DNA of 64,000 nucleotides from Mariprofundus ferrinatatus. GTDB taxonomy: Bacteria; Pseudomonadota; Zetaproteobacteria; Mariprofundales; Mariprofundaceae. The position numbers were made by a program, and so were the translations under genes. The stretch spans positions 496,001 through 560,000 of the forward strand of contig NZ_CP018800.1 of the NCBI RefSeq assembly GCF_002795825.1. Direction: 5' to 3'. Of the stretch, positions 16,903 to 39,358 are shown piece after piece (position 1 is the stretch's first letter; every line of letters begins with the position of its first letter). The notes under the pieces were generated by a model. The model was given only the letters and a program-made list of their open reading frames with translations, made no database searches and was not told where the DNA came from.

Positions 16903-16962
16903 CACGCTGATTATATGGGGCGGTTCATTGCACATTCGCACTGATCTGCCTAAAGTATGACT

Positions 16963-16978
16963 TGAATATCAATATTCA
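16963..16978. repeat. AT-rich palindrome before the AAAEK lipoprotein gene
   Basis: Perfect 7-base inverted repeat TGAATAT–CA–ATATTCA, followed directly by seven T residues, 25 bases upstream of the start codon at 17004. Could be an operator or a weak terminator-like stem; position fits a regulator site of the downstream gene. Confidence 0.4.
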
Positions 16979-17003
16979 TTTTTTTCGAGAGGGGAGATTC
17001 ACC

Positions 17004-17876
17004 ATGAAAAAAATCTTTATCATGGCCTGTGTGGCGATGCTGGCAGCTTGCAGCCAGCCTGCAGAGCAGAAAAAGGCGCCTGTGGCACCGCCGCCGGTTC
17101 AGGCAATCTCTCTGGATAGTGATCAGGCGCGTTTCAGCTATGCAATAGGTATGGATATCAGCACCTCGGTGGCCCAGTTGGGTGTGGAGATCGATAGCAA
17201 AGTCCTTGCATTGGCGATTGCCGACCATCTGGCCGGTAAGGAGAGCAAGCTGACTCAGGATGAGGCAGCGACGATCAAGCAGGAGTACCTGATTGATCAG
17301 GCCATCAAACGTGCTGCTGCCGAAAAAGCAGCGGCAGAAAAGGCTGAGGCGGAGAGGATTGCTGCCGAGAAGGCCGCTGCTGAGAAGGCTGCCGCTGAGA
17401 AGGCTGCTGCTGAGAAGGCTGCTGCTGAGAAGGCTGCTGCTGAGAAGGCTGCTGCTGAGAAGGCTGCCGCTGAGAAGGCTGCTGCTGAGAAGGCTGCTGC
17501 TGAGAAGGCCGCTGCTGAGAAGGCCGCTGCTGAGAAGGCCGCTGTTGAGAAGGCTGTTGCTGAGAAGGCTGCTGCTGAGAAGGCTGCCGCTGAGAAGGCT
17601 GCCGCTGAGAAGGCTGCCGCTGAGAAGGCTGCTGCTGAGAAGGCTGCCGCTGAGAAGGCTGCCGCTGAGAAGGCTGCCGCTGAGAAGGCCGCTGCTGAGA
17701 AGGCTGCCGCTGAGAAGGCTGCCGCTGAGAAGGCTGCTGCTGAGAAGGCCGCTGCTGAGAAGGCCGCTGCTGAGAAGGCCGCTGCTGAGAAGGCTGCCGC
17801 TGAGAAGGCTGCCGCTGAGAAGGCTGCCGCTGAGAAGGCCGCTGCTGAGAAGGCTGTGCCTGCTGCGGGAAAGTAA
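17004..17876 (+). CDS. AAAEK-repeat lipoprotein, paralogue of the adjacent FKBP without the isomerase domain
   Basis: A 290-residue lipoprotein. Residues 1–16 are a signal peptide with lipobox LAAC, and up to about residue 103 it is clearly homologous to the next gene (shared MLAAC, LDSxxAR(F/L)SYAIGMDI, and IKQEY/VKQEF), i.e. the helical N-terminal domain of FKBP-type isomerases. From residue 104 to 283 the FKBP catalytic domain is absent and replaced by 36 pentapeptides, mostly AAAEK, ending in AVPAAGK. Such a Ala/Glu/Lys tract should be a long rigid helix, up to about 27 nm if continuous, comparable to the width of the periplasm. ATG 17004 follows GGGGAG. Likely a periplasmic spacer or scaffold; function unknown. 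Confidence 0.88.
17313..17852 (+). repeat. Array of 36 tandem 15-bp units encoding AAAEK pentapeptides
   Basis: 540 bases, exactly 36 units of 15 bp, mostly GCTGCCGCTGAGAAG or GCTGCTGCTGAGAAG/GCC variants. Units 3 and 4 read AEAER and IAAEK, and later variants read AAVEK and AVAEK. Because the unit is a multiple of three and contains no stop in several frames, long false open frames appear on both strands here. Confidence 0.97.
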
Positions 17877-17974: not shown

Positions 17975-18763
17975 ATGAAAAAGATTATTGCGCTTGCCTG
18001 TCTGGCAATGCTGGCTGCCTGCGGACAGCAGGCGGAAGACAAAAAGGCCACATCGGTCAATCTTGATAGTGAAAACGCCAGACTGAGCTATGCCATCGGC
18101 ATGGATATCGGCATGTCACTGAAAACACTGGATACCAACCTTGATCGCGCTGTGATGATTGCAGCGATAAACGACCGTCTGGATGGTGTCGACACAAAAC
18201 TTTCCCAGGAAGAGGCGGGAAAGGTAAAACAGGAGTTTTTCGTAAAACAGGCACAGATCAAGGAAGCTGAGCGTAAAGCTGCCGGCGAGAAGAATGCCGC
18301 GGAGGGCGCAGCCTTTCTGACCGAGCATGCCAAGAAAGAGGGTGTGACCGTAACCGAGAGCGGACTTCACTATCAGGTGATCCGCGAGGCAGATGGCGCC
18401 AAACCGACTCTCGAAGACAGTGTTCGCGTCCACTATAAGGGAACATTGATCGATGGTACCGAATTCGATTCTTCATACAGCCGTGGTGAGCCCATCAGCT
18501 TCCCGCTGGGCGGTGTAATAGCTGGTTGGCAGGAGGGTGTTCAGCTGATGAACGTCGGCTCCAAATACCGCTTCGTGCTGCCATCGGAGCTGGCATATGG
18601 TGAGCGTGGGGCCGGCAACACGATTGGCCCGAACAGCGTACTGATTTTTGAGGTGGAACTGCTGGCTATCGTAGATGAGAAGGCGGAGGCCGAAGCGGCT
18701 GCCGCAGCTGCAGAAGCGACCCAGAAAACAGCAGAAGCTGCGCAGGAAGCTGCGAAGCAGTAA
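17975..18763 (+). CDS. FKBP-type peptidyl-prolyl isomerase lipoprotein (FkpA/Mip-like)
   Basis: Periplasmic or outer-membrane folding factor. 262 residues: signal peptide with lipobox LAAC (Cys about residue 16), N-terminal helical dimerisation domain (about 28–125), and a complete FKBP domain (about 130–233) containing VRVHYKGTLIDGTEFDSSYS, FPLGGVIAGWQEGVQLMNVG and LAYGERGAGNTIGPNSVLIF. The tail is Ala/Glu rich (EAEAAAAAAEATQKTAEAAQ). ATG 17975 follows AAGGAG. It lies 98 bases after its repeat-bearing paralogue, and the pair looks like a tandem duplication followed by domain replacement. Confidence 0.94.
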   Translation: MKKIIALACLAMLAACGQQAEDKKATSVNLDSENARLSYAIGMDIGMSLKTLDTNLDRAVMIAAINDRLDGVDTKLSQEEAGKVKQEFFVKQAQIKEAERKAAGEKNAAEGAAFLTEHAKKEGVTVTESGLHYQVIREADGAKPTLEDSVRVHYKGTLIDGTEFDSSYSRGEPISFPLGGVIAGWQEGVQLMNVGSKYRFVLPSELAYGERGAGNTIGPNSVLIFEVELLAIVDEKAEAEAAAAAAEATQKTAEAAQEAAKQ

Positions 18764-37237: not shown

Positions 37238-37356
37238 ATTCTGCTAACGATTGATGTGGCTCTCAAATTGCACATTGGGGGTTAGTGTGCTACTTAAGAG
37301 GGGCGCACGACAACAGATAGATATGGTCTGTTGCTGCTTGCAGCCGGGAGGAAACG

Positions 37357-39309
37357 TTGCTGAACCGTGTAATTAAAGTACATATTATGGCGCTGACGCT
37401 ACTGGTGCCAGTTGCGTTGTTCGCAGCAAATCCGAACGTCGATTCGGTCGGCACAGTTAATAAATTGACCGCCGGTGAGAAGAGTGTCGCCGAAACGAGT
37501 GCCGAATCTGCTGGTCAGGATTATCAGCAACAGTTGAAGGTGACTGCCGCAGCTCTTGCCGCTGAGAAGGCTGCCGCTGAGAAGGCTGCTGCTGAGAAGG
37601 CCGCTGCTGAGAAGGCCGCTGCTGAGAAGGCCGCTGCTGAGAAGGCCGCTGCTGAGAAGGCCGCTGCAGAGAAGGCTGCTGCAGAGAAAGCCGCAGCAGA
37701 GAAAGCCGCTGCAGAGAAAGCTGCTGCTGAGAAAGCCGCAGCAGAGAAGGCCGCAGCAGAGAAGGCCGCAGCAGAGAAAGCCGCAGCAGAGAAATCCGCA
37801 GCAGAGAAAGCCGCAGCTGAGAAGGCCGCAGCAGAGAAAGCCGCAGCAGAGAAGGCCGCAGCAGAGAAGGCCGCAGCAGAGAAGGCCGCAGCAGAGAAGG
37901 CCGCAGCAGAGAAGGCCGCAGCAGAGAAGGCCGCAGCTGAGAAAGCCGCTGCTGAGAAAGCCGCTGCTGAGAAGGCCGCTGCAGAGAAGGCTGCTGCAGA
38001 GAAGGCTGCTGCTGAGAAAGCTGCTGCAGAGAAGGCTGCTGCAGAGAAAGCTGCTGCAGAGAAGGCTGCTGCAGAGAAGGCCGCAGCAGAGAAGGCCGCA
38101 GCAAGGGAGGCTGCCGCCAAGGTGGCAGTGGCTTCACTTCAGAATTATCAGAAGCAATTGCTGGAAATGAGTAAGCATCTGGCTGGTGAAAAGAGCAACG
38201 CAGAGTTGCTTGCTGTAAAGCGTACAGCAGAGAAAGTCGCAGCAGAGAAGATGGAGGCTGAGAGAATTGCGGCCGAGAAGCTGGCGGTGGAAAAGGCCGA
38301 AGCGATTGCAGCCGCCGAGAAGGCTGTTGCGGACAAGCTGGCTGCCGAAAGAGCTGCTGCCGAAAGAGCTGCTGCCGAAAGAGCTGCTGCCGAAAGAGCT
38401 GCTGCTGAAAGGACTGCTGCCGAAAGGGCTGCTGCTGAAAGGGCTGCTGCCGAAAGGGCTGCTGCTGAAAGGGCTGCTGCTGAAAGGGCTGCTGCTGAAA
38501 GGGCTGCTGCTGAAAGGGCTGCTGCCGAGGCTGGCGCTATAGAGGATGCTCCGGCTGATGTGGTTGTTGAAAAGAGTCCGCCTGCAGCTGAGAAAAAACC
38601 ATTTGTGGATCTATGGGATCGTGAAACGACTGCCTATGAGCCGGGTATTATATACCGGGATGAGTTTGATGGTGGTTACCTCTCTGAAGTGTGGCAGGTG
38701 CTCAATCCAAGGTCTGAGTTGATGAACTCTGATGGTGAGAGCCTGATCTTGATGACGAACAAATCTTCCCTCTCAAAAGGGCTTGTGCCTAACGTTCTGG
38801 TCTATAACGGCAGTAGTCTGAATGGAGATTATTCGGTTTCCGTGAGGGTGGATTCTGAGTTTACTGCCGGTAAGAACGGTCGGGCAGAACAGCAGGCGGG
38901 GCTGCTTCTCTATCGCAGCGGCAGCGACCACATAGGGCTGATTGTTGGCGTGGAAGATGAGGCGAACTTCAGCAAGTGTGAAGGTCGGGATTGCAGGCAG
39001 GTTGTCAGTGCCCGTTTTGTCAAGGCACTTGATGGTGAGCGTGTACAGATCAACAGCCCGTACTGGGTAGCCTGGCAAAAGCCGAAATCAACTTCGATGG
39101 CCACCCGTTTCTCGGTGTACCTCAAGATTGATAAAGTGGGCTATACCTATACTGCGCATGCAAGCCTCGACGGGAATACCTGGTATGAGATTGGGGCCGT
39201 ACCGTTCTTCAGCACCAAGCTGAAGCCGGCTCTCTTTGCCAGTGGCAATGAGGACTTTCCGTACGCACTGGTCAAGCTCGATCATCTGGTTATCAAAGAG
39301 CTTCAATAA
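37357..39309 (+). CDS. Secreted [10 protein letters not shown]-repeat protein with lectin-like C-terminal domain
   Basis: 650 residues. N-terminal signal peptide ([16 protein letters not shown]; no lipobox), a short linker ending [16 protein letters not shown], then 35 AAAEK-type units (residues 72–246; one is SAAEK), a non-repeat bridge ([20 protein letters not shown] and on), 12 AAAER-type units (328–387), and a C-terminal beta-rich domain (about 428–650) that looks like a concanavalin-A-like/DUF1349 domain: [52 protein letters not shown] and [11 protein letters not shown]. The two bridges share a YQ-x-QL…LA-x-EK motif, hinting at an internal duplication. TTG 37357 has GGGAGG five bases upstream. 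Probably a stalked envelope or surface protein whose end domain binds a glycan; ligand unknown. Confidence 0.9.
37570..38094 (+). repeat. Array of 35 tandem 15-bp units encoding AAAEK pentapeptides
   Basis: 525 bases in perfect 15-bp register. Codon use comes in blocks: GCC-GCT-GCT-GAG-AAG near the 5' end, long runs of GCC-GCA-GCA-GAG-AAG in the middle, and GCT-GCT-GCA-GAG-AAG at the 3' end. Such blocks point to recent local unit duplication. One unit reads SAAEK. Long antisense and shifted-frame open frames here are artefacts. Confidence 0.97.
38338..38517 (+). repeat. Array of 12 tandem 15-bp units encoding AAAER pentapeptides
   Basis: 180 bases, first unit LAAER, one TAAER, the rest AAAER; units are GCTGCTGCCGAAAGA or GCTGCTGCTGAAAGG. 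A separate array from the AAAEK one, with a different charged residue. Confidence 0.95.
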
Positions 39310-39327: not shown

Positions 39328-39358
39328 AAACAGGCCGCGCAAAACAGGCGGCCTGTTT
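39328..39358. terminator. Bidirectional terminator between repeat-protein gene and purB
   Basis: Perfect 11-bp stem (39328–39338 with 39348–39358), 9-base loop, with A-rich flank on one side and T-rich on the other, in the spacer of two convergent genes. Confidence 0.85.

Follow-up and report, generated by a model that had tools for sequence, protein, structure and literature searches.

A secreted rod protein with a ConA-like domain in Mariprofundus ferrinatatus, shortened by VWA-domain deletion and related to genes heading an sfz-like polysaccharide cluster

Layout of the gene and its product

The window analysed here comprises 64,000 nucleotides of Mariprofundus ferrinatatus CP-8 (NZ_CP018800.1, positions 496,001 to 560,000), and its sequence confirms both the presence and the layout of an open reading frame of 650 codons at 37357-39309 of the forward strand (table 1). 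As the initial annotation proposed, the product appears to be a secreted protein made of a signal peptide, rods and a ConA-like end domain; the sequence and a Pfam profile support this description, and no lipobox Cys is present in the signal peptide. The orthologue of M. aestuarium CP-5 shares the TTG start region. The protein sequence shows neither a C-terminal anchor nor any known signal for export across the outer membrane.

Table 1. Features of the rod-ConA gene, in window coordinates
Feature	Position	Strand	Basis
Whole gene, 650 aa	37357..39309	+	Open reading frame; syntenic orthologue in CP-5
Shine-Dalgarno-like GGGAGG, 5 nt 5' of the TTG start	37346..37351	+	Sequence
Signal peptide, aa 1-23, without lipobox	37357..37425	+	Sequence; kept in VWA-bearing orthologues
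Scar of the VWA domain (NVDSVGT versus AVLFVVDSSGS... in orthologues; ~540 bp gone in frame)	37435..37455	+	DNA alignment with CP-5; no VWA-profile match in own genome
Rod 1, 35 AAAEK-type pentads	37570..38094	+	Repeat finding and pentad count
Middle segment, non-repetitive, Ala/Glu/Lys-rich; YQxQL motif also found where the rod region begins and in CP-5	38095..38352	+	Sequence comparison
Rod 2, 11 AAAER-type pentads (12 with the preceding LAAER)	38353..38517	+	Repeat finding and pentad count
ConA-like domain (GH43_C2, PF17851) with conserved short Cys-Cys loop KCEGRDC	38638..39306	+	Profile match, alignment
Terminator-like hairpin 3' of the gene, ahead of convergent purB	39342..39358	+	Sequence

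Rod 1 (aa 72-246) is an unbroken run of 34 AAAEK pentads and one SAAEK, in agreement with the 35 units first reported. Rod 2 (aa 333-387) consists of 10 AAAER and one TAAER, also unbroken, and the 12 units initially given are reached only by counting the LAAER that precedes the run. TRF recovers both arrays with a period of 15 and scores of 709 and 299, far over chance. The amino-acid unit is constant while the codons vary, AAAEK being spelled in 14 DNA versions. The rods hold 57 K-to-E(+4) pairs versus 1 in the opposite direction, and their helical moment at 100 degrees is ~0.01 (rod 1) and ~0.04 (rod 2), with no hydrophobic seam. Judged by sequence, this is the SAH pattern of regular i,i+4 salt bridges without a hydrophobic seam, and the rods would be compatible with a single helix, whose rigidity we infer. 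In published work, Ala-rich, low-charge designs built on 7-residue repeats showed a tendency to self-association (PMC5347031), so bundling of the rods is possible. Pfam and NCBIfam matches to HC2, Extensin and histone-H1-like families were rejected as composition artefacts, since they are located on the rods.

The C-terminal domain (aa 428-650, 223 aa) matches the GH43_C2 profile PF17851 at 30.7 bits (E 3e-7), above the curated Pfam cut-off of 22.7 bits. All seven aligned family members match the profile at E<=0.01. A likeness to concanavalin-A-like/DUF1349 domains had been suggested previously: the ConA-like part of this proposal stands, but the DUF1349 profile stayed below threshold on the domain. 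AlphaFold models were poor (pLDDT 39 from a single sequence, 54 from four sequences), with an all-beta prediction. A Foldseek search of the PDB with the pLDDT-54 model, which is too poor for fold searching, gave no match at E<=0.001, and PDB sequence searches with the domain returned no relative and no solved ConA-like structure.

Orthologues, loss of the VWA domain and a second AAAEK gene

The CP-5 orthologue occupies the same locus, in the order coaBC-bcp-ispH-gene-purB-tig; IS30-like transposase fragments lie between it and purB (L015, 9460-10661). In CP-5, ET2 and S139 the orthologues are built as signal peptide, VWA, rod and ConA, with the VWA profile above its cut-off. Aligned to CP-5 at the DNA level, the window gene shows an in-frame gap of ~540 bp, where NVDSVGT stands for AVLFVVDSSGS, and a VWA profile search of the CP-8 genome found no copy of this domain. 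The VWA is present in every relative with an assembled N-terminus and missing only in CP-8. As read from these comparisons, the window gene is a VWA-rod-ConA copy shortened by an in-frame VWA deletion, and it clearly illustrates how a secreted protein with repeat spacers can lose a domain without a frameshift. What it retains of the VWA-(rod)-ConA family is the homologous ConA domain and the signal peptide, without the VWA.

A profile scan of genome contigs matched three Mariprofundus records, the initial scan none. In OFTM123, G062 and G063 the VWA and rod reach contig ends, as expected if repeats break short-read assembly, and the ConA half of OFTM123 lies on a separate contig. Rod or linker length ranges from about 0 to 490 residues across relatives, and VWA-ConA genes without a long rod occur in G057, G071 and G248, the last from another family of the phylum. 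In this distant proteobacterium (L125, 3665-5931) the VWA-ConA gene adjoins a gene for a signal peptide and ConA only, and no obvious polysaccharide genes lie near it on its short contig. The simplest history would have VWA-ConA as the ancestral form, followed by insertion of rods and later loss of the VWA in CP-8. In the relatives the VWA probably binds a protein partner. S139, G062 and G063 carry GKAP in place of the GxTP found in the others at the usual MIDAS Thr; together with the missing domain of CP-8, this suggests that the VWA contact is dispensable.

The ConA domains of CP-8 and CP-5 are 72% identical, with dN of 0.17-0.18 and dS of 1.15-1.47, and purifying selection acts on the domain; the dN/dS of about 0.11-0.16 is a value for the pair and includes the time before the VWA loss. 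In likeness to the ET2, OFTM123 and S139 domains, the CP-8 domain falls 4-5 points short of the CP-5 domain, which could mean relaxed constraint after that loss.

The window contains another AAAEK gene (16962-17876, ATG at 17004), coding for a lipoprotein with an FKBP_N domain and an AAAEK tail, adjacent to a full FKBP lipoprotein (17975-18763). The initial annotation placed both AAAEK proteins in one envelope system. Both genes are indeed present in CP-8 and CP-5, and the two rods share an 83-nt exact match in CP-8, which leaves room for recombination between them. Nevertheless, only 29 nt are common to the two rods in CP-5, as expected for low-complexity repeats. The lipoprotein is confined to CP-8 and CP-5, being missing from at least five genomes with a ConA or VWA part (ET2, S139, OFTM123, G057 and G062), and so the co-occurrence check does not support a common system. 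Over its N-terminal part it shares 52% identity with the neighbouring FKBP lipoprotein; the most plausible view is that it arose as a tandem duplicate of that gene and that a rod replaced the isomerase part. A joint system is thus highly improbable. Expanded repeats also occur in four other envelope-type proteins of the CP-8 genome, and the presence of AAAEK in two CP-8 genes is best seen as a reflection of the repeat-expansion tendency of the CP-8 and CP-5 genomes. One AAADK-pentad, lipoprotein-like protein with a C-terminal CKACH haem-type motif (L021, 7994-8920; CP-8 genome ~1694993-1695919, minus strand) gave a weak, sub-threshold Cytochrom_C match and is possibly a rod-tethered cytochrome in this iron oxidizer. 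Two more envelope-type proteins of the CP-8 genome have expanded Ala/Pro/Glu repeats (L022, 8685-9557; L023, 6905-8734).

Association with an sfz-like polysaccharide cluster

In ET2 and OFTM123 the VWA/ConA gene immediately precedes, in the same orientation, the cluster Sfz1(BcsB)-Sfz2(MshEN+GT2)-Sfz3-Sfz4(GH113)-Sfz5-CotH. It has this position also relative to the cluster in G057 and to Sfz1 in S139, whose contig stops there, giving an operon-like adjacency in four relatives. The cluster comprises BcsB, MshEN plus glycosyltransferase 2, a 499-aa membrane-type protein, GH113, a 287-aa protein and CotH. In gene order, sizes and domains it matches sfz1-6, the candidate stalk-polysaccharide genes that are named after stalk formation in the Zetaproteobacteria (PMC8250860; Koeksoy et al. 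2021).

The Sfz2 tree resolves two supported clades, A (96/99) and B (100/99). Clade A includes CP-8, CP-5, ET2 (contig 3), OFTM123, G052 (S139), G057 and G062, while clade B holds a second ET2 copy and the other genomes; ET2 thus has both cluster types (L016, L120). Each of the seven clade-A genomes has the VWA/ConA gene, compared with 1 of the 16 others (Fisher 3e-5, with no correction for kinship); the 12 genomes of the genus that have clade B alone all lack it. Co-occurrence of linked genes is partly due to shared inheritance. The VWA gene occurs without the cluster in G063 (a MAG, 78% complete, no clade A) and in G071, from another genus, and no VWA/ConA gene adjoins the clade-B (stalk-type) clusters inspected. 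A search run without positive control found no ConA match in 120 genomes of the family around G352, which carries a 52%-identity Sfz2.

CP-8 and CP-5 have clade A only, and there the rod gene lies 63-75 kb from the cluster (63 kb in CP-8), so that linkage has been lost. Their clade-A cluster occupies the site of clade B in ET2 and is flanked by the same genes, a PP2C-like one among them, which suggests in-place replacement between the clades at a shared locus. Divergent sfz homologues are reported for both strains (PMC8250860, PMC6443915), and both form only dreads (PMC5513912, PMC6443915). M. micogutta ET2, in which both clades occur, produces thin filaments and also some stalks; dreads are not reported. 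Only three isolates of known phenotype carry the VWA/ConA gene.

Possible roles and relation to known systems

The explanation we favour, holding it at about even confidence, is that the rod-ConA protein is a polysaccharide-binding matrix or anchoring protein of the VWA-(rod)-ConA family, acting in a dread-type matrix. It would be Sec-exported and non-lipidated, with two Ala-rich helical rods as expandable spacers that hold the ConA-like domain away from an N-terminal contact. The ConA-like domain would bind exported polysaccharide where filaments of iron oxyhydroxide arise, which in CP-8 and CP-5 are 'dreads'; deletion of the VWA partner contact in CP-8 would have left the rod-plus-ConA form. 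A glycan-binding role is plausible, and the link with a polysaccharide cluster in relatives strengthens the case: given the ConA-like domain, its position and its co-occurrence with a cluster for polysaccharide synthesis and export, binding of that polysaccharide would be the simplest assumption. An extracellular location and a role in the dread matrix would follow from the same reasoning. A more far-reaching and rather doubtful proposal is that clade-A sfz genes with VWA-rod-ConA (or rod-ConA) define a dedicated, previously unrecognised dread matrix protein. Clade A would then yield short shed filaments and clade B twisted stalks, the rod protein would link cell surface and polysaccharide, and the VWA loss in CP-8 would have altered how filaments are held.

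The protein might never leave the cell, a TolA-like helix spanning the periplasm while the ConA-like domain binds peptidoglycan or nascent polysaccharide before export. The lack of a lipobox, anchor or known outer-membrane export signal in its sequence is compatible with this. We consider a periplasmic spacer unlikely: a rod of ~340 residues, if helical throughout, would extend ~50 nm at 0.15 nm per residue, beyond the usual width of the periplasm, the range of rod lengths is unlike that of a fixed-gap spanner, and no Tol-Pal domain turned up among the genes of the sfz-like cluster. It is also improbable that the gene is a decaying remnant whose original job disappeared with the VWA, kept by chance with a drifting rod length. 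The restriction of the loss to CP-8 among relatives with an assembled N-terminus and the slightly faster evolution of its ConA domain point that way. However, the deletion is in frame, the gene retains an intact Shine-Dalgarno sequence, signal peptide and terminator, the rods (35 and 11 units) are preserved as amino acids while their codons vary, and the dN/dS of the CP-8/CP-5 pair is low even if it covers pre-loss time.

A further question is whether the rods matter at all, or whether they are incidental to repeat expansion in a protein that would work equally well without them. VWA-ConA relatives lacking long rods and the repeats of the four other CP-8 envelope-type proteins are compatible with this; yet all six rod-bearing relatives have long Ala/Glu/Lys rods, and the unit is kept at the protein level despite codon differences. 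We thus regard incidental rods as possible but less than likely, and retain the matrix or anchoring role with the rods as spacers.

How iron oxidizers shape extracellular oxyhydroxides, as stalks, which serve as biosignatures, versus dreads, has so far been approached through candidate polysaccharide genes only. The rod-ConA protein brings in a protein as a further candidate component, one that follows a single cluster type, and offers a testable genotype in which clade A with the rod-ConA protein would go with dreads and clade B with stalks. Its VWA-deleted ancestry and the position of its relatives just ahead of sfz-like exopolysaccharide genes go beyond the initial annotation. The domain types are known, whereas their combination and the tie to a dread-type cluster are not described in the portions of the literature covered, nor is the VWA/ConA gene named in the covered parts of published accounts of the sfz cluster and dreads. 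Neither PMC8250860 nor PMC4643136 uses 'von Willebrand', 'concanavalin' or 'lectin' in its main text.

Several known systems share parts of this architecture. GH43_C2 is a ConA-like domain from the C-terminus of beta-xylosidases; the window protein and its relatives match the profile but, unlike those enzymes, the window protein has no GH43 catalytic domain and carries the ConA domain on rods, accompanied in relatives by a VWA. With secreted VWA-domain proteins (PF00092/PF13519) the orthologues share a signal peptide and a VWA with DxSxS, the window protein lacking the latter domain. SAH domains, (EAAAK)n linkers and TolA domain II resemble the window rods in being long Ala/Glu/Lys repeats that lack a heptad seam; the window rods differ in a pentad that yields K to E(+4) pairs. 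The stalk formers' sfz includes a long, SH3-bearing CotH protein, in contrast to the shorter CotH of the cluster linked to the rod gene. The window gene is not among sfz1-6; in relation to these and to the xag-like cluster (Kato et al. 2015; PMC4643136), its relatives immediately precede a homologous exopolysaccharide cluster of six genes.
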